From: Camellia lanceoleosa | Taxonomy: Eukaryota; Streptophyta; Magnoliopsida; Ericales; Theaceae | DNA length: 64,000 bases | Direction: 5' to 3' | Assembly: GCA_025200525.1 (NCBI GenBank) | Contig: CM045762.1 | Coordinates: 125,927,752-125,991,751, forward strand | Shown: positions 2,333 to 56,843 of the stretch, in pieces | Layout of the letters: every line of letters starts with the position of its first letter | How positions within the stretch are numbered: position 1 is the stretch's first letter | The notes under the pieces: model-generated | Database searches by the model: none | Seen by the model: the letters and a program-made list of their open reading frames with translations, nothing else | Told to the model about the DNA's origin: nothing | Made by a program: the position numbers and the translations under genes

Positions 2333-2666
2333 ATGGATTCCTCAGATGACGAAGGAGAAGAGTACCTCTTCAAAGTAGTCATAATCGGAGACTCAGCAGT
2401 GGGCAAGTCCAATCTCTTGTCAAGGTACGCTCGAAACGAGTTCAACATGCACTCCAAGGCCACGATCGGAGTAGAGTTCCAGACTCAGAGCATGGACATC
2501 GACGGCAAGGAAGTCAAGGCCCAGATTTGGGACACCGCCGGCCAAGAACGCTTCCGCGCCGTCACCTCTGCATACTACCGCGGCGCTGTCGGTGCCCTCA
2601 TCGTCTACGACATCACCCGCCGCACCACCTTCGACAGTGTCGGCCGCTGGCTCGATGAGCTCAAAA
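2333..2666 (+). CDS. RABA5C: RABA5c-like Rab GTPase, exon 1
   Basis: First exon of a Rab11-clade (RABA5) small GTPase, a membrane-traffic switch of the trans-Golgi/endosome system. The start [14 protein letters not shown] gives the family's usual short acidic N-terminus. Visible motifs are the P-loop GDSAVGKS (residues 19-26), switch-I threonine in KATIGVEF (about 42-49) and the G3 motif WDTAGQE (66-72). The exon also contains the RABA-typical run [17 protein letters not shown]. It encodes 111 codons plus one base and ends at a good donor (AAAA|GTAAGT), a phase-1 position matching the acceptor at 15745/15746. Plant RABA genes usually have one intron near this place, but a 13 kb intron is exceptional. 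The RABA5c assignment comes from residue pattern; RABA5 paralogs are possible. Confidence 0.9.
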
Positions 2667-4899
2667 GTAAGTCCTGCTTTTTACATAAATCCAACTCTTT
2701 CTTAATTTTTGTTTTTGTTTTTGATTGATGAGGAAATGAAATGTGGGGAAAAGGAAAGAATTGGAAATGGAATTTGGGTTTTTTTATTTTTATGTTTGAT
2801 TTGGGTTGAATCATCAAACCCAAAATTCAAAATTTTTAATTAGTTAAGATGTAGTGATTCATAACTTGAGTGAGAAGCCAAGCATGGAATGATGTTTAAG
2901 TATTGTCATGATTTGATAGGATTGGTATTCTTAATTTGAATTTTTTCCTTTAATGCTTGTCCTATTCTTTAGTTGTTTTGTAATGGTATGGTTGGAGTTT
3001 TTTTAAAATGTATTGACATTGATTGGGTTATTCGTCATAAAAGTACTCCTAATTTAAAATATATGAATAAGTTTTATCGGGCTCACTTACATCACATCAA
3101 GTTTATCTACGCATTACGTTCAAAATTGGGCACTATTTTTGGATATTTTTGATGAGTTCGTAGCAATTTATCTTTATGCTTGGATTTCTTGTTTATTTGG
3201 TATAGTTTTAAGATGTTTTGGGCAAGTAGATCTGGCGTGGATGCCAACGAACTGTTTAGTATTGCTGTGTCAAAAGCCACTTTTGCTTTTGCAATAGAGC
3301 AAATATGGCTGGCCCCAATAGAAAGGGTAAAATGAAAACCCAAAAAAGTATGCTGGTATGATTGCTATTCTTTCACCTTTTCTTGAAAGTTTGTCGGGCT
3401 AAAAGTACTTTTGGAGGGAGAGATGATTTTCAGTCACTACTTTTTGAACCCAAATTTTACTTCATTCAAAACCTGTTCTCATTTGTTAGTGAGTTATATT
3501 ATATGGATCGCTAGTAAATGATAAATATGGTTATTAGTATAGAAAATGGACTTGCCTTTTCTTCCTTCTTTTTTATTTGGGTATGCCGCTCTGCAAGCAA
3601 GGAGCCAGGGAACCAAATGGGCTGTGGTGATGTCAGAATTTGCACCTGTTTGTATCTATTTAGTCATCAGTTCACCTTCTCTTTTCTTCCAAGCAACTCC
3701 AAGTAATGTTTCCACGTCTGACGTCTTCTAGTCCCCGTTACCCATCTCCTTGGAGGGTGGGATATTTATTTTATTTTATTTTTGATGTTTTGTACATATT
3801 GCTTTCTCCAAACCTTGCTTTGGAGGGAGTCTCGAGCATTAAGTCACCTTTTTTGTGTGTGGATGTTTTGTAATTTTGTAACTTGAAACAATAAGGTTGA
3901 TTTCCTACATATTCTGGAATTTCTGTGCACAGTATTTACTTCTCTAACCATTACTTTAGAGAGAAGCTATCAAGGTTCATAATGTCCTTGCAACCTATTT
4001 TCCAATATTGCTGTCAATTATGTAACAACTTGAAAGCAAAAATTGTTTTCATCATAGTTGTCAAATTGAGATACCTATTGTGTATTGTTTTTCTTTGTTT
4101 CTAAATTATGTATTGTAAGATTTTTTAAACATATTTAAATGTAGGTAGAAAAATCAATGTAAATGTAAAAAAATCTTGAGAAAACAAAACACTAAACAAA
4201 TATGATCAGTAAAATTAAAAAGTAAGGCTACTTAAATTAAAGATATGCATGCATCAATACTTAATGTATATAAAAAGCAGAGCATAGTTAAAATATTTAT
4301 GACAAAATATATTAACACTTGACTACGTTATTACCTTCAAAATTTTCTCATTCTTAATATTATTGTGTAATATGTTCTCATATTGTCTTTACTCACCATT
4401 TAAGTTTTAATATTTACTTCACAACTTTTGTTATCAAATAGTTTGTCCGTAGTAGAAAGTTTCATAGTTTAACCGATGTACATAGGCAAAAATCAATGGC
4501 ATAAGATACTTAATACCATCCAAGTAGATATTTGTCCAAAAAAAGACAAAATAAAAAAAAAACCCTTCTCATAATAAGATATTATTGAAAAATTTTAACA
4601 ATATTTATTTACATAAAATAAGTAAATTTTTTTTTTCCCCCTCTCCAAAATTGCTATAGAAATTTAAGTATTCGTGTATCGTATGTATGGCTTCATGTTC
4701 CTTGTATTGTATATTGTATCATGTATCATATATGTATCATAAGATACATTTAACTTAATATATGTATTAATGATACATATCTATTTGTCTATAAAATTAT
4801 TGAATCGTATGATATGTATTGTTAATAATAAGCTATGAAACATTGGTCTTTGACAAACATATCATACCTGTACCAAATATTGGTACTTTGCATGGTACT

Positions 4900-6360
4900 T
4901 TTGCATACGTTTTGGGTACATAAAACACATCCTATTTTTTCTTCTTAATTTTTGTCGTAACCCAGAGGTACTAGTATACCCCCAAGCCATACCTAAGTGG
5001 GTATAGTATTTTCTTCTATGAAAGGATGAACTTGGTTTTATTTGATTTGATTTGATTTGATTTTTTATTTTTTTTTATGTGTATCATGGTTTTGAAATTA
5101 AGTTTATTTTTGTAAGTTATTTAATATGATGACATTTAATTTTGTGTATACCTTAGTTTTGGTATTAAATGTGAATTGTAGGTTGTGTCTTAACCAACTA
5201 AACCATTTAACTAGTTATTGCATTACTACAAATTAAAAATAAATATTTTGTTACGAACGTACCTTTTTTTTTTGGGGGTGAATAGTTACGAACGTACCTA
5301 GTCATACCTGTGCCTGACTTTTTTTAAAAATTTTTTTACTACTGCAAATATGGCCTATCTATAAACCTGGACATCTCTGAAGGTAATGTGTATGGTGTTG
5401 TGGATTGCATGTTGGGCGTCGGACACCGCAGTGACCGTTTTTTACTAGCGCTTGTATTGTATATGTACATCTATGAGCATGGACATCTCTCTGAAAGGTG
5501 TGTAATGGGTGTTTTGGATGAGGGCAGCGTCGGACACACGGTGGACACGTGTTGGACATTCTACCTAACATGCCCCCTTTGTTTTTTTTTGAATTTTTGT
5601 AGCCGGACACCCTTGGACATGTTATGGACATGTTGAAGACAGAGAGAAACCCTAACCCAGGAGACAGAGAGAGAAACCTAACCCATTGAAGATAGAGAGA
5701 GAGAAACTTGTTGAAGCCCTAGATCGAGATATGTTATTCCAATCTGTGTGTTCGACTTTCTCTCTCCCCCTTTGTTTGGTGCTCTTTGTTCATCGTCGAA
5801 CTTGTTCATCTTCTTCGACTCTCTCTCCCTCTATTCGGTGCTCTCTGTGCTTCATTTCTTTCATCTCTCTCTCTCTATTTGTTTCTCTTGTTTGACGCTC
5901 TCTTCTTTTTTGTTCGACTCTCTCTCCCCTTTTCGTGTTACTGTTCTCACCCTTTTTGTTTTTTGACCTTTTTTTGTTTTTAGTAATAAAAAGAACCTTT
6001 TTTCCCCCTCTTTTACTTTTTTCTATATTTTTTAATATTCTTGTTTGCTAAACATTAAGATGTAGAATAAATTATTTTTATTTGTAGAAAAAAAAATTTA
6101 ATTTGGGCATGATATTTGGTATTAAAGTAAATAAATAAATAAATAAAAATAATATATAATTTTTAATTTTACATATAATAAATAAAAAAATTATATATAT
6201 TGAGTGTGTCCCTAGTGTGTTGTGTCTCTCATTTTTTTTTAAATTTGTGTGTCCACGTGTTCTTGTCGTGTCCCGTGTCCGTGTTTGTGCTTCATAGGTA
6301 CTAGTACTGGTACTTGTACCCATACCGCACTCATATTTCATAGATTGTAAGATATTGACA
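4900..6360. repeat. Candidate unclassified dispersed repeat in the intron
   Basis: This stretch differs from the surrounding AT-rich intron. It has repeated GGACAT and CGGACAC words near 5370-5640, a pyrimidine-rich tract with TCTCTCTC runs at 5750-5950, and GTGTCCGTG-type words near 6250-6290. Both ends contain GGTACTAGTA-like sequence (about 4965 and 6296). The layout suggests an old transposon, perhaps hAT-like, but I could not delimit inverted repeats or a target duplication. Confidence 0.3.
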
Positions 6361-6927
6361 ACATTCTCAAATTGACTAGGTTTCCCATGTGGGATTTGAA
6401 CAAATCCCGGTAACGGGTTTTAGAGGAATTGATCGAATCATTCAAATCGTGGTACACAACATTTTTATCTCTAGTTTTGGACCAATCATTTTCTATCCTT
6501 TTCTTACTTCTTCCAAGTGCTTCTGCTGAAGATTTAAGTTTCTTCCCTTGAGTGTATTAGTTTGCTTGTCCCATGTTATGAATGAATAGTAGATTGCATT
6601 TTGTGTAATGGTGTTTAAAGAATATATTGTCTACAATATTGAACTACAAATTTTCTTTTTTTGAATGTATTCACTTGTGGTGTAATCGCCAACATGATCA
6701 AATTTGTCCAACCGAAAATCATATCATGAATCAAAATTCTAATTTTGCAAATTGTGAATTGTAAGATTTGGCACAAACTATAAAAGATGATGTAAACAAT
6801 CACATATGCGAAAAAATAAAATAAAATAATCTTGGCACATGTTATACAATAATTCTTATATGAGGAGTAAGGACATGATTACACTGTTTAATTGCAAAGA
6901 CATTGCCTTCATAACAAGAGATGTGGA

Positions 6928-7566
6928 TCTAAATGCCATGAACCAGAATTATTTAAGAATCATAATCTAGTGATCCATATCTTTTTGGGCTTCTCAACTT
7001 CGTAAGCATGAGTCCTTTTTTAAGGTATTCTTATTGCATAAAAAAATATTCCTTATGCCTTGTGCATCAAGAAAATTGGTCTTTAAAGTGGATAGAAAGA
7101 GTTAGTCGTGTGGGTTTTGCTCATAGTTTTAATTCATAGCAAAGAATTTTAGGTTCGTATGAGGGAAGCGGATGACATTGTGTTTGATAATGTAGGTTTT
7201 ATTGATTTGCAGAGAAAAGTGACTGAAATGATTTTGGACAATATTTTAAATATGATTTGGGGTTAATTAAAAGCCAATAAGTATGGGGGAAACTAAGAAA
7301 CTTTGAGATAGCAATTTAGAGGTTCCTAGACTTCTTCGGAATCTAATAGGCTCTAGCTTAGAAAAAGGGGCTACAAAATTTTGACTAATCGAAACATTCT
7401 AACCTTAATAAAAATCACATGTGACGACCCAATAAATTAAGTCAATGTCTAGTACATTAGAAAATTACCTGATGACTACTCTTGGTTGCTAAAACTTGAT
7501 AATTTACAAATAAATATATGGAGCAACTATATTTGTTAAATTGAGCATTGAATGCTGAATCAATAA
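6928..7566. repeat. Left host direct repeat flanking the viral insert
   Basis: About 639 bp beginning TCTAAATGCCATGAACC and ending GAATGCTGAATCAATAA. It is repeated in the same orientation at 11246-11883 with roughly 15-17 substitutions seen by eye. It appears to be intron sequence rather than viral: it has no viral ORFs and matches the base composition of the intron. The two copies bracket the geminiviral inverted repeat exactly, so the duplication probably arose with the integration. Confidence 0.9.
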
Positions 7567-7592
7567 TCTAGTGATCCGAAACGCAGAGTTCT

Positions 7593-8015
7593 ACACAGTC
7601 GACCAGCCCCTGTTTGCCAGAACTAATCAAGAAGAGGCATCGCAATGAGAAGAAGAAGGCCCAACGCAGGAAGATATTCCACTTCCAATGCGGCTGTTCG
7701 ATATTTCATATGAACGGATGTATCGAACCACATCCACTGGAGAGAGAAGATGCTGTCAGGGGTCTTCTATGACACTTTGAGGAACTCGATGTGGTTCAGA
7801 GCCGTAGACATGTCCATGCCAGGGAATCAGGGGGTATACAAGATAGAATGCCTGTTCAACTACAACCTCTGGAAAGCACTGGGAGTCTGGACGTTCACCG
7901 CGACACTGTATACATGGCTGACATACAGTGGTCGCAAAAGCCTAACGGAGAATGTATTTACCTGGCTTATTGCACGCAGGATGACGAAGACATTATCCAG
8001 CTTTGGGATTATTAG
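7593..8015 (+). pseudogene. Geminiviral TrAP (C2)-like fragment, left arm
   Basis: The frame ending at 8015 shows a basic stretch followed by CGCSIFHMNGC, the cysteine/histidine pattern expected of the transcriptional activator protein zinc-binding region. The C-terminal tail is acidic (QDDEDIIQLWDY), as in a C2 activation domain. It overlaps the REn-like frame in a different phase, which is the normal geminivirus arrangement. It is broken: the 5' end is lost at the arm boundary and there is an in-frame TGA at 7770-7772. The other arm does not share that stop but ends about ten codons earlier. It is a fossil with no expected function. Confidence 0.75.
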
Positions 8016-8118
8016 CCCTGTAAATTATTGTCTCGCACTGACCATTGTACTCGACGAGATTTCATATTATGTAAAAGATTGGCGGTGGAAAAATATTTAT
8101 GTACATTTTCACGATTAA
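7750..8118 (+). pseudogene. Geminiviral REn (C3)-like ORF, left arm
   Basis: A 122-residue open frame with features of the geminivirus replication enhancer: an N-terminal GVFYDTLRN stretch, an FNYNLWKALG core and the following aromatic-rich segment WTFTATLYTWLTYSG. In geminiviruses this protein binds Rep and boosts viral DNA replication. Length is close to the usual ~130 residues, and it overlaps the TrAP-like frame in another phase. An in-frame TGA at 7711-7713 lies just upstream, so the N-terminus here may be shortened; the right arm has no stop at that codon. Family assignment is by pattern recognition, not a search. Confidence 0.75.
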
Positions 8119-8435
8119 ATAATAAAATGTTAAGATATATTTAATTAATTTGATTATTGTTTTGGATCATCAACAATAATATAAATTGGCCCAATTACAG
8201 TCTACTAAATTAGGAGGCCCAATTACAGTCTCCCAAATGAAGAGGCCTAGTATTAATGTTTTTTCATAGGCCCTTCAGACTTAGGCCCATCAAAACTATG
8301 AAAGAAGTGGACACTAGAATGGATCATATTCGGGGCGGCCAAGTATTCCAATATAATACACAACAGGACAGAACTACAACACATTTGAACAAATTATTTT
8401 ATTGAGGAATAGTAACAATTATACAATTATGATAA
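8119..8435. other. Region where the viral coat protein gene is missing
   Basis: In a geminivirus the convergent ends of REn and of the coat protein gene would meet here. Only about 317 bp separate the REn-like stop from the virion-sense ORF, and none of the three minus-strand frames shows a coat-like sequence. The stretch instead has two copies of a GGCCCAATTACAGTCT-type phrase and further GGCCCA words. It may be a deletion scar or rearranged viral sequence. Confidence 0.5.
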
Positions 8436-8792
8436 TTAGGAAATTGTATCACTGTTCCTAAGTCCACAGCCGGATTTTGACACATCTTCTTCATCCACAG
8501 TTACGCAACAGATCTCAGCGGCAGGGTGTGTGTCTGCACATCGCTCCATTGTCTGCATGGATGGAGCCATCGCCTGGGTTTTTAATTTGGAAACCACTTT
8601 TAGATCGGTGAATAGAGCATCTTCTTGCCGCTGTAAGGCGTTGATCAGCCGGATTAAATTTTTGCCGTTCTCCTCGCCGACGACAAATAAGGACCAGTGC
8701 AACAACAAAAGATCCGGCTCGTATTTTAAAATCAACCGCCTAAATTGTCTTAGATCTCCGAGATCCATTGCAAAATTATTCAAAATCCCCAA
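8436..8792 (-). pseudogene. Virion-sense ORF in the V2 position, left arm
   Basis: A 118-residue ORF on the strand carrying the TAATATTAC origin, directly downstream of the intergenic region and divergent from Rep. Geminiviruses have the pre-coat/V2 movement and silencing-suppressor gene in this position. The protein has a basic/hydrophobic N-terminal half (DLRQFRRLILKYEPD, FVVGEENGKNLIRLIN) and a polar tail. I see no diagnostic motif, so the call rests on position and size. The right-arm copy (10047-10238) is truncated. It could equally be a fused or degenerate V-sense frame. Confidence 0.45.
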
Positions 8793-8947
8793 TTATTTTA
8801 GATTAAATAGTTTCCCGTTTGTGCTTGCCTTTTTAAATCTTTTAATTCTGGCCGCAGATTTGGGAGCGGAGCGGAGCCCTGTAGCCGACAACACGGCACC
8901 AAATGCGGAATGGAGCACCAATCAGGGGACGACACGTGGTGCGGAGG

Positions 8948-8977
8948 GAGCGTCCCAGTAATATTATGAGGACGCTC
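8948..8977 (-). promoter_or_regulatory. Geminivirus origin stem-loop, left arm
   Basis: On the minus strand the nonanucleotide TAATATTAC (8958-8966) lies in the loop of a hairpin whose stem is GAGCGTCC/GGACGCTC. This is the hallmark rolling-circle origin nicked by Rep. A TATA-like ATATATAAG follows near 8987-8995 on the plus strand, upstream of Rep, as expected for the intergenic region. Confidence 0.9.
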
Positions 8978-9082
8978 TTGGGATCATATATAAGTCACTT
9001 CCTCACTCTCTTATACCAGTAAAGTTTTTAGAGAGTGACTTGCGTCATCTGAGAGAGTGAGTGACGTCATTGAAAGTGAGTT

Positions 9083-9664
9083 ATGGCCTCAATGTGACGT
9101 CGTTTTAGAGTTCAAAACAAGAACATTTTCCTCACATATCCCAGATGTTCTTTACCTAAAGAGAGATTGTTAGAGAAAATTAGAGAGTTGTTCATTAACA
9201 GGCCACCAAATTATGTGAGGGTTGCACATGAATTACACGAGGACGGTGAACCACATCTACATGCTCTCGTCCAATTTCCATACCGTTTTCAAACACAGGA
9301 TGAACGGTTCTTCGACGTTACTCATGATCACACTAATCGCCATTTCCATCCAAATATACAAGGGGCCAACAACCATCAGGCAGTGCTGGAATACATTTCC
9401 AAATACGGGGATTACACGGAATGGGGTGAATTCTGTCAGAGGGGCCGCTGCGCTAACCAGGACAACAAAGAAAATATATACCACGAGGCTCTTGCAACCG
9501 GAAGCAAAGAAGAAGCTATGGCATTGGTAAGAAATGGTGATCCCAAATGTTTCTGGTTGAATTACGACAAGTTGTCATCTAATTACGACAAGATTTCATT
9601 TACTCCACCGTTACTGTATATTCATCAATTTACAGATACAGTGTGGATCGTTCCAACTCTCTAA
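9083..9664 (+). pseudogene. Geminiviral Rep N-terminal domain, truncated
   Basis: Rolling-circle replication initiator, N-terminal HUH endonuclease part. The three family motifs are visible in order: FLTYP (motif I), HLHALVQF (motif II, metal-binding histidines) and YISKYGD (motif III, catalytic tyrosine). In a live virus this domain nicks the origin and starts replication. Two breaks are evident. There is a TGA at 9095-9097 four codons after the likely ATG, a codon at which the right arm differs. The frame also stops at 9664, just after it runs into the right inverted arm, so the oligomerisation and helicase parts are absent. Codons between 9191 and 9653 exist only once, in the loop. Confidence 0.9.
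9191..9653 (+). other. Single-copy loop of the viral inverted repeat
   Basis: A 463 bp spacer between the two arms, made entirely of Rep coding sequence including motifs II and III. It is the only part of the insert that is not duplicated, and it would be the loop of a transcribed hairpin. Confidence 0.85.
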
Positions 9665-9866
9665 TTTTCTCTAACAATTTCTCTTTAGGTAAAGAACATC
9701 TGGGATATGTGAGGAAGATGTTCTTGTTTTGAACTCTAAAACGACGTCGCATTGAGGCCATAACTTGCTCTCAATGACGTCACTTACTCTCTCGGATGAC
9801 GCAAGTCACTCTTTAAAAACTTTACTGGTATAAGAGAGTGAGGGAGTGACTTATATATGATCCCAG

Positions 9867-9897
9867 GAGCGTCCCTATAATATTACTGGGATGCTTC
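9867..9897 (+). promoter_or_regulatory. Geminivirus origin stem-loop, right arm
   Basis: A second TAATATTAC (9878-9886), now on the plus strand, in the loop of a hairpin starting GAGCGTCCC. The right stem has one substitution (GGGATGCTTC), so pairing is weakened compared with the left arm. Confidence 0.85.
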
Positions 9898-10046
9898 CCC
9901 CGTGCCACGTGTCGTCTCCTGATTGGTGCTCCCTTCCGCATTTGGTGCCGTGTTGTCGGCTACAGGGCTCCGCTCCCAAATTTGCGACCAGGATTAAAAG
10001 ATTTAAAAAGGCAAGCGCAAGCAGAAAACTATTTAATCCAAAATAA

Positions 10047-10238
10047 TTGGGAATTTTGAATTATTTTGCAATGGATCTCGGAGATCTAGGACAATTTAGG
10101 CGGTTGATTTTAAAATACGAGTTGGATCTTTTGTTGTTGCACTGGTTCTTATTTGTCGTCGGCGAGAAGAACGGAAAAAATTTAATCCGGATCATCAACG
10201 CCTTACAACGGCAAGAAGATGCTCTATTTGTCGGTTAG
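10047..10238 (+). pseudogene. Virion-sense ORF in the V2 position, right arm, truncated
   Basis: Copy of the 118-residue ORF of the left arm. It starts with the same MGIL and matches it closely over the first ~60 residues, then ends early at a TAG at 10236-10238. Downstream sequence still aligns with the left arm copy, so this is a simple premature stop in a fossil gene. Confidence 0.6.
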
Positions 10239-10720
10239 AAAGTGGTTTCCGAATTAGAAACCCAGGCGATGGCTCCATCCATGTAGACAATGGAGTGATG
10301 TGCAGACACACATCCTGCCACTGATATCTGTTGCGTAATTGTGGATGAAGAAGATGTGTCAAAATCCGGCTGTGGACTTAGGAATAGTGACGCAATTTCT
10401 TAATTATCATAATTGCATAATTGTTACTATTCCTCAATAAAATAATTTGTTTAAATGTGTTGTAGTTCTGTCCTGTTGTGTATTATATTGAAATACTTGG
10501 CCGCCCCGAATATGATCCATTCTAGTGTCAACTTCTTTCATAGTTTTGATGGGCGTAAGTCTGAAGGGCCGATGAAAAAACATTAATACTGGGCCTCTTC
10601 ATTTGGGAGACTGTAATTGGGCCTCTTAATTTAGTAGACTGTAATTGGGCTCATTTATATTATTGTTGATGATCCAAAACAATAATCAAATTAATTAAAT
10701 ATATCTTAATATTTTATTAT

Positions 10721-11246
10721 TTAATCATGAAAATGTACATAAATATTTTCCCACCGCCAATCTTTTACATAATATGAAATCTCGTTGAGTACAATGATTA
10801 GTGCTAGACAATAATTTACAGGCCTAATAATCCCAAAGTTGGATAATGTCTTCGTCATCCTATGTGCAATAAGCCGGGTAAATATATTCTCCGTTAGGCT
10901 TTTGCGACCACTGTATGTCAACCATGTATACATTGTCGCGGTGAACGTCCGGACTCCCAGTGCTTTCCGGAGGTTGTAGTTGAACAGGCATTCTATCTTG
11001 TATACCCCCTGATTCCCCAGCATGGACATGTCTACGGCTTTGAACCACATCGGGTTCCTCAAAGTGTCGTAGAAGACCCCTGACAGCATCTTCTCTCTCC
11101 AGTGGATGTGGTTCGATACATCCGTTCGTATGGAATATCGAACAGCCGCATTGGAAGTGGAATATCTTCCAGCGTTGGGCCTTCTTCTTCTCATTGCGAT
11201 TCCTCTTCTTGATTGGTTTTGGCGAACAGGGGCTGGTCGACTGTGT
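10721..11246 (-). pseudogene. Geminiviral REn (C3)-like frame, right arm
   Basis: Minus-strand copy of the REn-like frame, ending at 10721. It shows the same core (CLFNYNLRKALG and the aromatic TFTATMYTWLTYSG segment) with about a dozen substitutions relative to the left arm. The open frame runs to the arm boundary at 11246 and on into host flank, so the predicted N-terminus beyond the REn homology is not viral. It lacks the TGA found upstream of the left copy. Confidence 0.7.
10860..11246 (-). pseudogene. Geminiviral TrAP (C2)-like fragment, right arm
   Basis: Minus-strand frame overlapping REn in another phase, with the same cysteine/histidine-rich region and a tail containing VQLQPPEST. 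It does not carry the internal TGA of the left copy but ends at a TAG (10860-10862), about ten codons before the left copy's end. The 5' part is missing because the arm begins inside the gene. Confidence 0.65.
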
Positions 11247-11883
11247 CTAAATGCCATGAACCAGAATTATTTAAGAATCATAATCTAGTGATCCATATCT
11301 TTTTGGGCTTCTCAACTTCGTAAGCATGATTCCTTTTTTAAGGTATTCTTATTGCATAAAGAAATATTCCTTATGCCTTGTGCATTAAGAAAATTGGTCT
11401 TTAAAGTGGATAAAAGAGTTAGTCGTGTGGGTTTTGCTCATAGTTTTAATTCATAGCAAAGAATTTTAGGTTCGTATGAGGGAAGCGGGTGACATTGTGT
11501 TTGATAATGTAGGCTTTATTGATTTGCAGAGAAAAGTGACTGAAATGATTTTGGACAATATTTTAAATATGATTTGGGGTTAATTAAAAGCCAATAAGTA
11601 TGGGGGAAACTAAGAAACTTTGAGATAGCAATTTAGTGGTTCCTAGACTTCTTCGGAATCTAATAGGCTCTAGCTTAGAAAAAGGGGCTACAAAATTTTG
11701 ACTAATTGAAACATTCTAACCTTAATAAAAATCACATGTAATGACCCAATAAATTAAGTCATCGTCTAGTCCTTTAGAAAATTACCTCATGACTACTCTT
11801 GGTTGCTAAAACTTGATAATTTACAAATAAATATATGGAGCAACTATATTTGTTAAATTGAGCATTGAATGCTGAATCAATAA
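11246..11883. repeat. Right host direct repeat flanking the viral insert
   Basis: Second copy of the ~638 bp intron segment, starting immediately after the viral arm (TGTGTC|TAAATGCC) and ending CAATAA before unique AT-rich sequence. It is about 97% identical by eye to 6928-7566. Differences are scattered substitutions and one or two single-base indels. Confidence 0.9.
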
Positions 11884-12179
11884 ATATTGAGTTATAATTT
11901 ATAAAATAAATATATAATAATATTTAAACAATTAGATATTAAAAAGGTTATAAACATGAGAAGTTTAGACATAAATCAATGAATTGAATGATGAATATAT
12001 GGTGAAACAGGTAAGACACTTTTCTCCATAGTAAGAGATTTGGGTCCAAGCCTCAGCATGATCCATGAATGCAGATTACATTATTGATTATGCTATGATT
12101 TATGATAATCCATGGATACATTTACTGTATAAGTTAAAGCAGTGCTGTGAAAAGTGAGCTAAGGTAAAGGGGCTGAAGC

Positions 12180-13840
12180 GACATGAAGTGGAGAAGCGTG
12201 GCTTAAGCGAGAAAAGTGCTTGCCTCAAGCCTTGCCGTGAGGTGGGGGCTCTTATTTATTTATTTATTTATTTTGTGTGTGTGTGTGTGTGCACATGCGC
12301 TTGTGTGTATCCAAAATTATCTTTTGAGAATCTGGGCAAGTCAGCAACTGTTCTCTGTAGGTAGATCACCGTATAAAGTTTGTGTTTTTGTTGGATTTTG
12401 ATACTTGGGATGTTGGATTTTTATGTTTTTAGTAAGGGCTAATTACACAAACCTCCCTTGATATTTTGACAAATACATGGACCTCCCTTACTTTAGCTAA
12501 CAATATACACAAGCCTCCCCTTGGTTAATTTGTCATCATATTTTAACATTTAAATGCCAAAATTACCTTTGCAGATCTTGTAACCAACACTCTTTCACAA
12601 CCAGACACCTCCATCCCATATTCTACCATTCCCATGGCCAAACACCTCTCTCTCTTTCTCTCCTCCCAGTGGTCATGACTCATTTCACACAATTATCAGA
12701 TTCCAGCCGAAACAAGGTATGAGATCACAACTCTAGGTAACGAAATCTGAGTAGAATAACCTAGAATTAATCAAAAAGTGAACATGAACAGCGCGGAGAT
12801 TGCATCTCTCAGCCGATGTTCCAGTGGCCATGTCCATAGAATGTAGAAAAGGATGGGTTGTGAAGAATCAATGAATAAATCCAGCCACTGCCGTATTGTG
12901 TGTATGCATATGTGTGTGTGTGTGTATATATATAAGTTCATATTGTCACTATTTGAGAAATATATCAATTAATAGGAAAATTTATGGGAAAGGAAATGAG
13001 CCATTGATACTTGCTAGGCTGGTGGAGACGTTTTTGAAAATTCTGTGTGTTTGGGAGTGGGAGGAGGTTATGGTTGTGTTGTGGTTAGAGTATACAAAAT
13101 GACCAAATGTTGGGTCTCAATTACTGTTATAGAGAGAGAGAGAGACATACACACACACACACAGAGACAGAACATACCCACCATCATGTACACATTTTGG
13201 GTCATCATACATAACCCACCCACCATTATATATACACCGAACATGACCCATTGGTATAGGAAGTTAACCCACAATGTAGACAAATTCTGCCATGGCCACT
13301 GTCAATTGTGGGTTTTCTTTGTTTGGCCTGAAGTTGGGGAAATTAATAAATGAGTAATTACAACTGAATATTTTTTAAGGGTAAAATAGTAAGTTTACCA
13401 TTTTTGTTGCTTAACGTCACTTGAAAGTTCTGGCAACAGAGGTCAGTGCAAATTCAGAAATCACAGGGGTGGCTGCTGTGATTGTCAAATACCTCAGAGT
13501 AATTAACCCTTTTATTATGGTTCTTGGAAATACTGAAGTTCTTGTCCAGACTATTTATTTTTTAAGAAATATCTTTGTCTTGCCTCGCCTCATCAGCTCA
13601 TGCTTAGGCCTTAGGAGGCCATTTCACCTCAGTTCGCTTTTTGCCTATCTACTAGCCCCGAAAATGAATGGCGCTCAAGTGCGCGACTTATACCCGGCCG
13701 TTCAACGAGAAAACTTTATTAGCCATGCATCGACAACCCTTGGGCAAGGCAAGGCAAGGCAAGGCAAACCCCAAACACGTCTTGCATTGGCCACACATTC
13801 GGCTGATGAAGGTCAGACTCTGGCTTGGCTTCGCTGAAGT
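12180..13840. repeat. Microsatellite-rich repetitive part of the intron
   Basis: Contains (TTAT)n at about 12252-12272, (GT)n at 12274-12291, (TG)n near 12907-12925, (AG)n at 13131-13145, (AC)n at 13149-13162, and five GGCAA units at 13743-13767. Words such as CTTAAGCGAGAAAAGTGCTTGCCT near 12210 (first 20 bases typical of dispersed plant repeats) and CTTGCCTCGCCTCATC near 13580 suggest old transposon sequence. I could not define an element. Confidence 0.45.
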
Positions 13841-15745
13841 AGCCCAAAGTCACATTCCTTGCAAGGCCATTAGCATTTCGACGACATTGGACAGTGTGGA
13901 TACAAAAAGTTATATTTAAAATTTAAAATTCCAAAGTGAGATATTTCAACACAATTGGCATTCATATATGATACTACAACCATCACGAGATTGACAATTT
14001 CACGAGTTGCAATTCTAACATTTTTCTTTCATACAAAAGCCAAATTCTATAAAAAAACAAAAGTAGACCAACTTCAATTTCAAATATAAATCAATAATGT
14101 ATCAAAAAATTCCATTTAAATACAAAAATTGGGATCTGAAAACTCAAAACTTTTAGAAGTTTTGAGTATTTGTTTTTCAATTTCCATAAAAGCAGCCAGT
14201 CATTATATTTTTATAACTTGAGTAATCTAAATACTCACTCAAATGGCCCACAGTACCCAAATCACCACAAATTTTCAAACCTTTGGCTTGTGCCTTCAAG
14301 ATATTACTTTTGAATCAATTTAGTGTATTGGAACAAAGTATGCCATACTTGTCACAAATCGCACGATTTTTCTGTGGTTATTGCTTCTGTTGATTTACCC
14401 TAGATACTTTAAAATTACTTGGTGTAGTGAACTGAATCATGTGGCAAGTATTTTGAATTGTTCGATTCGGATTAGCATCAGCATACTACTTTAAAATTGA
14501 AAAGTAACTCAAAATTAAACCTAAACATTGTTAAACATTGTTCAAGGTGTTCTCCATATGAAATCCCAAATTTGCCATTGGTCTTTTTTGCATAATTTTA
14601 TTAGTTACTTGTAGGAATTTGATCATACGCACAGTAAACAAGAAATATTTTTTCAGATTAAGCGCCTACTTGGCTCCTTTTCCGATTTTACTCTGGGTAG
14701 CAATGGTAGTTTGTCAAAAGACTATGTTTCAGGTTTTGTGGTGTGTGGGTTCTAATATTGTATGTGTTAGAGTTCATTGCTTTCTTCTGACCTTCATGTA
14801 TAAAGGACAGCTTTATTGATTGTTGGTCTATTAACATGGCCTCATTGTGGCTGAACAACATAAATTGTTTTGTTCTGTTTGTATTATATTTATGCAATTT
14901 ATATTCTATTGTTTTTGATTTGCTGATCGCACATAGTACACACTTGCCCTGCTGTGATATAAATTGATTACGCCAAATGGGACATGGTTCTTCTATAAGA
15001 ATGTCTATTTTATACTATACAACTACACATACACAAGCATAGTTTCGGGTATGGAGAATGAACATCGGTCTTCTCTTAAGGAATTACGGGCTGCTAGTTG
15101 TTGACATATTAAAACGAGGATAGCCCATTTTCCAAGAGTCTTTTATGGCTATTTGTTGGATTTCTTTCATAGTTGAATGTCCAAATTGAGGCAAGTTATA
15201 AAATTTGTAATTTACTTCCAACCAATTGATGAAAGAAAAAAATCGTCAAGAAATTAATTTTTAATTGATAGTTCAATCACCAGAGCTACACCACATTACA
15301 AATAGTATTAGTAACATATCAGGACTCAAAATACTATCTAAGAACACAAATAATCCAAATGTTTAGAAAAATGCAGCTAGATATTGTGATGTTCACTGGA
15401 GTTCGTAAATATCCCCATTGCATTCTTGTACTTCCTGTATTAATAAAGCGCCTTTCTTATGATCCTCTGGCATTATATTAGCCAGAGGTGGAACTAATTA
15501 TAATCAGGTATCAATGGCAACTGATTGGGCAGGAAATAAATGTTGCATAGTTTTCCCATATTGGGTGAACTATCTGATCTCCATACAGGTGATTTTCCAA
15601 GGAGATTTTCAAATATATTTTTACATTTTTTTAAAAAATTTTATGTAAGCAAAATATGTGCTTGTTTTCTCTGTTGTTTATCATCCTTTCAAAATGATTT
15701 GGATTTGGATTTCTCACAATTGAAAGTACAATGAACATTATGCAG

Positions 15746-16055
15746 CTCATTCTGATACAACTGTGGCAAGGATGTTGGTTGGGAACAAATGTGATTTGGA
15801 CAACATCAGGGATGTAAGTGTGGAAGAAGGCAAGAGCCTTGCAGAAGCGAAGGATTGTTCTTTATTGAGACATCTGCCCTGGATTCCACGAACGTTAGGA
15901 GAGCTTTTGAGATTGTTATCAGGGAGATCTATAGTAATGTCAGTCGAAAAGTTTTGAATTCAGATTCATACAAAGCTGAGTTGTCTGTCAATAGGGTAAG
16001 CCTCGTAAAAGATGGAGCTGATGGATCAAAGCAAGCTTCATGTTGTTTGAGATGA
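15746..16055 (+). CDS. RABA5C: RABA5c-like Rab GTPase, exon 2 (frameshifted)
   Basis: Second exon. It opens with [16 protein letters not shown], giving the G4 motif NKCD (about residues 125-128), and continues [11 protein letters not shown]. At about 15849-15850 one base is missing relative to an open frame: the following sequence resumes one frame over as [12 protein letters not shown] (the G5 motif) and runs through [14 protein letters not shown] to the C-terminal ASCCLR, whose paired cysteines are the geranylgeranylation site. With the shift as written the product would end at 15957 after about 181 residues, losing G5 and prenylation. With the downstream frame the total would be the family's usual ~214 residues. 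A G-run error in the assembly and a true null allele are both possible. Confidence 0.85.
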
Positions 16056-42578: not shown

Positions 42579-43725
42579 ATGTCGCGACGAGGAAGAGGAA
42601 GAGGTTGAGATAGGCCTCGTAGAGGTTGTCAGGATATGCTGGCACAACAAGATCTCCGTTCCCCAGAAGAAGGGGCGGGACAAAATGATGCGGCTCTTCC
42701 GTTGGCCCAAGATGTGATGTGGGCATTAGTTTGGGAGATGGCAGGGGCTCTTCGTGAGTCCATGGAGATACTCTGAGCTGAGCAAGCAGAGAGGACAATT
42801 GAAAAGGAAACCCGAGTTTCCTTCTTGAAGAAGGAATTTTTTTCATTCTAGCCCTGCCAAGTTTAGTGGTGGGCCTAACCTAATGAAGGAAAACGAATGG
42901 CTGGAGCAGATTATTAAGTTAGTGGAGATTCTAGATATCCATGATGGAGAACTTCGGGTGGCATTGGCGGCTTATCAGTTGAAGGGGGAGGCTAGTCAGT
43001 GGTGGAAATCAGTGAAGCATAGAGTGGAGCATACCTGGAAGGCATTCACTCACGTCTTCCAAGAGAAATTTTTGCCTCCCACAGCAAGAGAGAGGTTGAG
43101 AAAGCAATTCGAAGACTTAAGGCAATTAGACACACCAGTGGTGGAATTTGAGGCCACTTTTACTAGTTTGGAGCGTTTTGCACCCGAGCTCCTAGCAACC
43201 GAGGAGTGTCGGTGTTTGGAATTTGAGAAGAGACTAAGGTCTAAGATCTTGATGAAAGTGATGGGCAATATGTATCGGGAGTATGATAGATTGGTGGAGG
43301 TTGCAACTCTTGTGGAGATTATGCTTGAGGCTAAAGAAGTGAGGCAAAAGCACAAGAGGCTGAGTTACACCAAATCTAAGGGTGATACGGGGTCTTCTAA
43401 GAGATCTATGGGTTCTTTTTCTTCATATTCCCAGTCCACACCCTAGCAAATCAAATCATCGGGGTCTGTTTCTATGAGGAGTTTAGGGAGTGCGGGTCCC
43501 TACCATGTTACTTGTTTCAGTTATGGCCAACAAGGTCACAAGGCATCTGATTGCAAACAGAATCCAAGTCACCAATAACCAACAGATTCTCAAGGGTAAG
43601 CCTAGAGAAGGGGCCAATTGCCTACATGCTACCATTGTGGGCAATCGGGCCATATGAAATGATCTTGTTCACAATTGGTTGGAGTGGGGAGTACTTCGAG
43701 ATCTTGAAATTCTAGGGGGCATCGG
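42579..43725 (+). pseudogene. Gag of element D with zinc knuckles
   Basis: The likely start is MSRRGRGRG at 42579, in a frame soon broken by a stop. The best open part, 42883-43446, begins MKENEWLEQIIKLVEILDIH and continues LKGEASQWWKSV, FQEKFLPPTARERLRKQFED and VVEFEATFTSLERFAPE, the classic Gypsy gag core. Downstream there are two CCHC-like knuckles: CFSYGQQGHKASDC, where the second Cys is Tyr, and CYHCGQSGHMK followed by a stop. After removal of solo LTR E the frame continues at 47915-48015 with NYQPVQSGQTSR. Several stops make it a pseudogene. Gag packages the element RNA. Confidence 0.8.
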
Positions 43726-55326: not shown

Positions 55327-56843
55327 ATGGCCGATGATATTCCACACGTCGGGACTCCCTCGGACCGCGAGATGGATCCCAGGGTCGAGCTCACCGCGAG
55401 CGGCGTCCGCCGACGGCGACCTACCAAATGGCCATCCACGTGCTTCCGCCAGACGGACTCCGCCACTTCCGCGGCTTCGACAGGGCTTTGGACCCGGAGC
55501 TTCTGCTGCGTGAGCCGGCCACTCATTTGTCCTTTGGCGCTTCCGAGGTAACACCCTTATCTTTGCTTTATTTTTTGTAATGTAGGATTTCCTGTCAATT
55601 GCCGTAGCTAACTGAACCCATTACCTGTTTAGTTCTGATGTACTGTACTGGAGTTGATTGTAGACAAACTCATAACTGACATCTGTTTAGGACCGACGCA
55701 CATGCACACACACTGCACTAGCCTTAATTACCCATATACACGGCACACACTGTATTCCACTGCAAATTCACCGACACCCGGTACTTATTTGAATCTGAAA
55801 GCATATTGTATGCCGTATTTAAACTGAACCACACAAAGCACGTTGACGCATCATACGTTGTAGTTCACCTACTGGCACACTATAACCCGATATCTGCTTG
55901 AATCTGAAAAATGTACACACATGTACCAGTATCTTGACCCTCACAAACACACTGACACATCACAGGCCGTAGTCCACCGCAGTACACTGAAACCTGACAT
56001 TTGCTTGCATCTGAGAAACGTACACACGTGCACCATGTTTATACTGCACCACTCAAAAACACACTGACGCATCACATATTGTAGTTTACTGTAAGCACAC
56101 CGGCACTCGGTTTCTGTTTGAATTTGAAAAACGTGCATGCATGCTAGATTTGTATCGACTTTAACATGTTTCCTCAGAACTGTACATTTCATATTGCTTT
56201 GCAACCATTTGTTTGTAAACAGGGAGATTCCCATACCATCCGTGGGTATGGGAACGTTTTGGCTCGAGATTGGTACGCCGAAGCCGCTCGACGCCAAGCG
56301 CATTGTAGATCGGGCCTTGGCACCTTCGCAGGGACTCCCGTGCTCTCTTGCAGACCTCTTCTTGCCGCCCTGGCAGAGAGGTGGTGGGACACCACCGATT
56401 CATTTCACTTATCAGCGACTGGGGACATGACGATGACCCCTTACGACTTCTCGATGCTCACCGGCATCGGGGTGGGGGGTGACCCGATCCCCTTCGATAC
56501 AGACATGGATGAGTGGATTGCCGCCGATTCACTTGCTTTCGGTGGCGCCGCCACTTGCTCGTCTGGTTCGTCGCTACTCTGGTTCGAGGTGCGATTCGAG
56601 TGCAACGCGTCTTTGTGGACGCAGCCCGATGACCCAGAGGCCGCCGAGAGATATGCACGTGGCTTCCTCATGTTCTTCTTGCCGGGACCACTCTGTTTGC
56701 CAAGGCGAACACAAGGCTCCTCTGCTTCAGCGCTTTGGTGGACGCCGAGAGGATTGTGCAAGATGATCGGGGCTTTGGCCACCCTTTACGGTTATATGAG
56801 CTCAGTCTCTCGTGGTAGTGGACAGCTGCTAGGAGGCTACTAG
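55327..56843 (+). pseudogene. Plant mobile domain (PMD) gene, antisense ORF of element G
   Basis: Exon 1 starts at ATG 55327 (MADDIPHVGTPSDREMD). A frame change after about 35 codons leads to a segment reading FDRALDPELLLREPATHL and a donor GAG|GTAACA at 55548. The intron ends AAACAG at 56222. Exon 2 (56223-56843) contains PVLSCRPLLAALAERWWDTT and DMTMTPYDFSMLTGIGVGGD, the hallmark W-E-R-W/F-H-L and DxxxLxG pattern of the plant mobile domain (PF10536). It ends with LYGYMSSVSRGSGQ...GGY and a stop. The domain is shared by MAIN-like host proteins and Tat-element extra ORFs. A region around 56690-56750 seems frame-disturbed. It runs opposite to element G and has its own promoter upstream. Confidence 0.75.

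Follow-up and report, generated by a model that had tools for sequence, protein, structure and literature searches.

An intron of a RABA5c-like gene of Camellia lanceoleosa carries a fragment of a geminivirus genome as two facing copies, and the differences between these copies are unequally shared between the strands of the locus, with the excess of C-to-T-type differences on the strand that is the sense strand of the gene. Unequal decay of this kind is consistent with arms that diverged where they now lie, at a locus with transcription in the sense direction. The window analysed is a stretch of 64,000 nucleotides (NCBI GenBank assembly GCA_025200525.1, contig CM045762.1, positions 125,927,752 to 125,991,751 of the forward strand), and all coordinates are positions within it.

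The two copies, or arms, lie at 7593-9190 (+) and 9654-11246 (-) around a single-copy Rep loop of 463 nt, and align over 1593 columns of which 1496 are identical (93.9%), the differences being 81 transitions and 16 transversions (97 base differences) together with one 5-nt gap; with a BLAST E of 0.0 chance is excluded. Both arms contain TrAP-like and REn-like sequence, an origin stem-loop and the Rep start. A first-pass annotation of the sequence had proposed this layout, and its coordinates and inverted orientation are borne out by BLAST, whilst its reading of the content as TrAP, REn and Rep agrees with Pfam matches to Gemini_AL2, Gemini_AL3 and Gemini_AL1. With a geminivirus-like Rep, integration in a chromosome and an origin stem-loop in each arm, the insert has the features of an endogenous geminivirus (EGV).

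Because the arms are inverted relative to each other, each plus-strand cytosine in one corresponds to a minus-strand cytosine in the other. Base composition and sequence context therefore nearly cancel in a comparison of strands, the cytosine opportunities on plus and minus being 115 and 114 for CG, 116 and 114 for CHG, and 442 and 410 for CHH. Differences of the plus-strand C/T type number 60 and those of the G/A type 21 (p = 1.7e-5, or 0.0005 when corrected for 32 repeat pairs). The bias is present in each arm alone (27:8 and 33:13), 14 of the 16 blocks of 100 columns lean towards plus-strand C/T with none reversed, and the block-bootstrap 95% interval of the plus-strand fraction is 0.65-0.82. 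When the same transitions are sorted by viral strand instead the counts are 40:41, thus the bias belongs to the locus and not to the virus, and the plus strand of the locus is the sense strand of the RABA5c-like gene. The window has 32 repeat pairs that are 150 nt or longer, and p falls below 0.05 for the arms alone, the other 31 all having p > 0.1, although many of those 31 overlap and 30 are located outside the Rab gene, which contains just one of them, the direct repeat that flanks the insert, so these pairs do not test transcription.

Several processes may produce a bias of this kind. Strand-biased CHH methylation is a DRM2 effect, but as the sole cause it was rejected, as CG (16:4, p = 0.012) and CHG (14:6, p = 0.12, not significant alone) lean the same way as CHH (30:11, p = 0.004). 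A replication-strand bias was set aside, as it should reach the other pairs in the window and none of the 31 is biased, with the overlap and location of those pairs as given above. Faster deamination of the non-template strand when it is exposed is described for E. coli in a passage of PMC2927911, itself a vertebrate paper, and this is the cause that we prefer to selection on pairing, because, as set out below, pair-breaking changes are not lowered relative to the direct repeats while the wobble class is raised.

Overall, the decay matches that expected of methylated non-coding DNA changing in place. Changed sites make up 20/229 in CG, 20/230 in CHG and 41/852 in CHH, with CG and CHG together changed more than CHH (40/459 vs 41/852, p = 0.008), and section 3.9 of PMC7758297 records methylation of tea EGVs in CG, CHG and CHH alike. 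Sixteen codon differences could be polarised against tea relatives and P0200 (a further 18 could not), 14 of these being C>T or G>A and the other 2 transversions, with no T>C or A>G amongst them. There is no excess at third codon positions, the counts at the three positions being 3/3/1 where TrAP alone is read, 9/5/7 in REn and 1/1/1 in the Rep start.

The arms and the direct repeats are probably similar in age, since their transversion divergence is alike (16/1593 vs 6/638, p = 1.0), whilst the arms have more transitions than the direct repeats (81/1593 vs 8/638, p = 6.5e-6), also when counted per column that bears C or G (81/701 vs 8/205, p = 7e-4). Dating with K = 0.0223 and assumed plant rates of 5.6e-9 to 1.3e-8 gives an insert age of 0.86 to 2.0 million years on those rates. 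The direct repeat, 639 bp of intron DNA, has just two copies within the window and these together bracket the insert. Between the left copy and the aligned left arm is a stretch of about 26 nt (7567-7592) that is probably viral, a TrAP-like frame starting inside it at 7575, and provided that it is viral the outer viral ends fall within 26 nt of each other, a coincidence expected for two unrelated molecules in about 2% of cases with an assumed circle of 2.7 kb. The simplest reading of this anatomy is that one repair event put the inverted fragment into a widely staggered break. Ends of long terminal repeat (LTR) retrotransposons follow the TG...CA rule, and an LTR retrotransposon carrying viral DNA was rejected, the direct repeat beginning CTAAATG and ending CAATAA. 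Outside the direct repeats, at 6927 and 11884, no short target duplication matches by eye.

If transcribed, the insert has the capacity to form a long duplex. As computed, a sense transcript keeps 1555 pairs and an antisense transcript 1516, with stabilities of -2822.9 and -2692.3 kcal/mol. Of the 81 transitions, 60 leave a G:U pair in the hairpin of the sense transcript and 21 break the pair. Perfect pairing over 21 nt or more would occur in 28 runs of the sense transcript, 921 nt in total, by analogy enough for Dicer-like enzymes, and the production of small interfering RNA (siRNA) from the insert is plausible by comparison with the known systems discussed below. Arms of 1.6 kb with a loop of 463 nt also have the long repeat and short spacer of the viral inverted repeats that feed RNA interference (RNAi). 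Pair-breaking changes occur at 37/1593 in the arms and an expected 10/638 in the direct repeats (p = 0.33), and wobble changes at 60/1593 and an expected 4/638 (p = 1.5e-5); the values for the direct repeats are expectations that assign half of their 8 transitions to each class, and their base composition differs from that of the arms. The first-pass annotation had likened the insert to an RNAi hairpin, of which the hairpin-capable layout inside a host intron stands, and the step of transcription gains indirect support from the biased decay.

Most of what can be said about the origin of the insert comes from its Rep fragment, which is 91% identical to the Camellia sinensis proteins LOC114259583 and LOC114315647 (P0001 being the 91% tea match), with seven tea EGV proteins matching at 73-91% over 99%. 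Outside Camellia the best named plant, with 51%, is Coffea canephora. For named exogenous geminiviruses, nine rows that cover at least 80% of the fragment give 38-46% identity, and three further rows reach 47-50% whilst covering 49-63% of it. In a Rep tree of 22 rows the window sequence falls in a clade with the seven tea proteins (100/98), the deeper branches being unresolved. Two scans of viral contigs, one with an alignment and one with the window Rep, gave 299 and 3 pattern matches and no relatives, hence the comparison with exogenous viruses rests on protein identity. Two short ENA contigs, P0009 and P0010, match Rep at 80% and 78%, and these could be tea transcripts, or virus and so a close living relative. 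The Rep matches, and the exact match of tea protein P0081 to the Rab gene over 114 residues, place the window in tea or a close relative. The insert is best explained as the fossil of a tea-lineage geminivirus. There is no support for the suggestion in the first-pass annotation of a heritable antiviral memory, with the named exogenous viruses at only 38-50% identity and the tea EGVs at 73-91%, and any siRNAs would more probably act on the insert itself and on related EGVs of tea than on those viruses.

The explanation that we regard as the best, and to which as a whole we would give an even chance of being right, combines a fossil of a tea-lineage geminivirus, decay in place, a sense-transcribed hairpin and siRNA-guided methylation. 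A fragment running from TrAP through the origin to Rep would have entered the intron as an inverted duplicate, probably in one repair-type event which, from the anatomy, may also have duplicated the 639 bp of intron, and the arms would then have diverged in place, as three tests support. Transcription in the direction of the gene would bring both arms into the pre-mRNA, which could fold, on the computed pairing, as a hairpin of about 1.55 kb. On precedent, Dicer-like enzymes may then cut the hairpin into siRNAs, and these may maintain methylation of the insert and of related EGV copies. The sense strand, both methylated and repeatedly exposed as the non-template strand, would thereby have come to carry about three times as many C-to-T-type changes, the bias itself being observed and this cause proposed for it. 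A stronger claim, that through most of its existence, about 1-2 million years on the assumed rates, the insert has been transcribed with its host gene, with hairpin siRNAs methylating it and its EGV relatives and the facing arms recording the direction of transcription through unequal strand decay, is tentative and leans towards the unlikely.

A number of observations weigh against this explanation. The flanking direct repeats are also intronic and show only 5:3. Transcription alone should also affect the loop, therefore the bias would be expected there too, yet amongst 9 changed residues in the Rep loop 4 are informative, of which 1 is for and 3 are against plus-strand C-to-T, although these are few sites. 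A C-to-T bias of 3:1 is far above what would be expected from ordinary transcription, and that the biased strand is the Rab sense strand has a 50% probability of arising by chance. The frameshift in exon 2 of the RABA5c-like gene makes the activity of this Rab copy uncertain. The transversion counts are small (16 and 6), and the arm differences are uneven, at 28/526 in TrAP/REn, 49/782 in the spacer, 17/185 in the intergenic region and 3/105 in the Rep start.

The insert may instead be an inert fossil, methylated and silent like other tea EGVs and giving no notable hairpin RNA, with the bias coming from some other strand-specific process, and this we consider possible though doubtful. Section 3.9 of PMC7758297 describes the majority of tea EGV loci as highly methylated and possibly silent in transcription, and every reading frame in the insert is truncated or broken, but an inert fossil leaves the sense-strand bias without a cause, and replication as its source meets the absence of bias in the other 31 pairs of the window. 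Selection for a useful duplex, purging changes that break pairs and leaving those compatible with G:U, would make the insert a maintained source of RNAi, and would account both for the transitions that retain a G:U pair in the sense transcript and for the greater stability of the sense duplex. Neither the pair-breaking class nor transversions are depleted, however, it is the wobble class that is raised, and selection on single mismatches in a duplex of 1.6 kb is hard to credit, which makes a selected hairpin improbable.

That the arms came from two related viral genomes already diverged before they were joined would be in keeping with the greater overall divergence of the arms (93.9% identical) than of the direct repeats (97.8%). 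This is a still poorer prospect, as transversion rates are equal, third positions show no excess, the bias tracks the strand of the locus and not that of the virus, and the outer viral ends lie closer together than two unrelated molecules would readily allow. It is very unlikely indeed that the structure is an assembly artefact from a fold-back read or mis-joined haplotypes, for although a few remaining base errors in the assembly are suggested by the one-base frameshift of Rab exon 2, a copy made by fold-back should hardly differ from its original where 97 differences and a 5-nt gap are seen, and the loop is single-copy and the bracketing repeats are themselves diverged.

The placement of the insert in a RABA5c-like intron, also proposed in the first-pass annotation, holds, as the intron has canonical ends and its removal preserves the Rab frame across the junction. 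The match of tea protein P0081 to exon 1 spans 2333-2674 and so reads past the donor. The frameshift near 15840 in exon 2 may be a base error, an allele or a mark of a pseudogene copy; the tea proteins P0081 and P0082 are intact at this position. Intron pieces at 3222-3326 and 3582-3728 are coding exons in the gene models of P0081 and P0082, 82-96% identical, models that are probably wrong in those pieces because the usual Rab sequence is recovered when exon 1 is spliced directly to exon 2. As the two proteins are intact and match the intron within 3222-3728 at that identity, this locus or a close copy is present in intact form in other tea assemblies. Elsewhere in the window there is an open reading frame (ORF) for a retrotransposon gag / Ty3 capsid at 42829-43443, and one at 56148-56840 with a match to a plant mobile domain slightly under the cut-off.

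The Pfam scan covered eight ORFs of the insert, the TrAP frame of the left arm lying outside these eight, and found no coat protein match amongst them. Rep is truncated at the arm junction, and an early stop just upstream of its frame in the left unit, near the Rep start, is absent from the right unit. Immediately beyond the origin, where V2 or the coat protein usually lies, each arm has a virion-sense ORF, for which the sole relative found is P0200 (99 aa, from a 531-nt contig; 64% over 71%), itself without a Pfam match. The Rep loop has a 21-nt tandem duplication at 9560-9601, and a 28-nt unit containing GGCCCAATTACAGTCT occurs twice in tandem in the spacer of each arm (8188-8243 and 10590-10645).

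Table 1. Positions in the window of the insert, its viral features, the bracketing repeats and the host gene
Feature	Position	Strand	Basis or remark
Left arm of inverted repeat	7593..9190	+	Complementary-sense viral genes on +; 93.9% identical to reverse complement of 9654-11246
Right arm of inverted repeat	9654..11246	-	BLAST and alignment
Single-copy Rep loop, 463 nt	9191..9653	+	Read from sequence and BLAST
Stretch of about 26 nt between left direct repeat and aligned left arm	7567..7592	+	Unaligned between two BLAST matches
Left direct repeat of intron DNA, 639 bp	6928..7566	+	97.8% identical to 11246-11883
Right direct repeat of intron DNA	11246..11883	+	One base common to right arm
REn-like ORF, left arm	7714..8118	+	Pfam Gemini_AL3, E 3.1e-6
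REn-like frame, right arm, stop-to-stop	10721..11266	-	Gemini_AL3, E 3.3e-9; extends 20 nt into direct repeat
TrAP-like frame, right arm	10860..11246	-	Pfam Gemini_AL2, E 2.1e-9
Truncated Rep frame (start in left arm, remainder mostly loop)	9098..9661	+	Gemini_AL1 catalytic domain, E 2.8e-40
Origin-type stem-loop with nonanucleotide TAATATTAC, left arm	8947..8976	-	Read from sequence
Origin-type stem-loop with nonanucleotide TAATATTAC, right arm	9866..9895	+	Read from sequence
Virion-sense ORF, left arm	8436..8789	-	No Pfam match; one relative, P0200
RABA5c-like gene, exon 1 coding part	2333..2666	+	Donor GTAAGT; 100% over 114 residues to tea P0081
RABA5c-like intron, 13,079 nt, holding insert	2667..15745	+	GTAAGT...ATGCAG canonical ends
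RABA5c-like gene, exon 2 coding part	15746..16052	+	1-nt frameshift near 15840 in this assembly

Amongst known systems the nearest in host and sequence are the tea EGVs of Clade 2 and 3 (Sharma 2020, PMC7758297), tea proteins being the closest Rep relatives. The tea EGVs of that paper are described as clusters and as co-transcripts with host genes (HSP70), unlike the intronic inverted repeat here, and the words inverted and hairpin are absent from its main text, whilst a defence by siRNA is raised there as a hypothesis. Yam EGV1 (Filloux 2015, PMC5014472) is alike in having Rep and REn without a coat protein and an origin stem-loop, and siRNAs of 21, 22 and 24 nt are reported for it, but in that account it forms direct tandem repeats with no TrAP found; against the single Dioscorea protein aligned, Rep identity is 37%. 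Sirtrons (Chen 2011, cited in PMC5260113) are likewise plant host introns that are sources of small RNA, although as cited there they are rice introns with no virus named. The word virus is absent from the main text of the tea phased siRNA (phasiRNA) paper, and PMC9124383, in the part available, has nothing on inverted repeats beyond its reference list. In the open-access literature searched, an endogenous geminivirus inverted within a host intron, with brackets of direct repeats and strand-biased decay, was not found.

Endogenous viral inverted repeats that feed plant RNAi are already known, from an RNA virus and from caulimovirids. In soybean, near-complete sequence of cucumber mosaic virus (CMV) RNA1 is inverted in the plant genome around a spacer of about 0.5 kb and is proposed as a hairpin precursor, much as here, and its siRNAs of 22, 21 and 24 nt have been sequenced (da Fonseca 2016, via PMC6256188); that account differs in concerning an RNA virus, with a spacer of plant origin and a position downstream of a Copia promoter. 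The tomato TSAs (Valli et al., via PMC10377300) are also a rearranged endogenous virus as an inverted repeat that is thought to make hairpin transcripts, but are caulimovirid, and for them 22-nt DCL2 siRNAs and silencing in trans have been shown. Beside these systems, what is new here is the 639-bp bracketing repeats, the similar transversion divergence of arms and repeats, and the 60:21 bias of transitions to the sense strand. Comparing strands between facing arms provides its own control and is a simple means of searching for past transcription in sequence alone, and if the insert has long been transcribed its arms would be a built-in recorder of the direction of transcription through strand exposure. 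The locus also makes the proposal of protective EGV siRNAs testable at one well-defined place.

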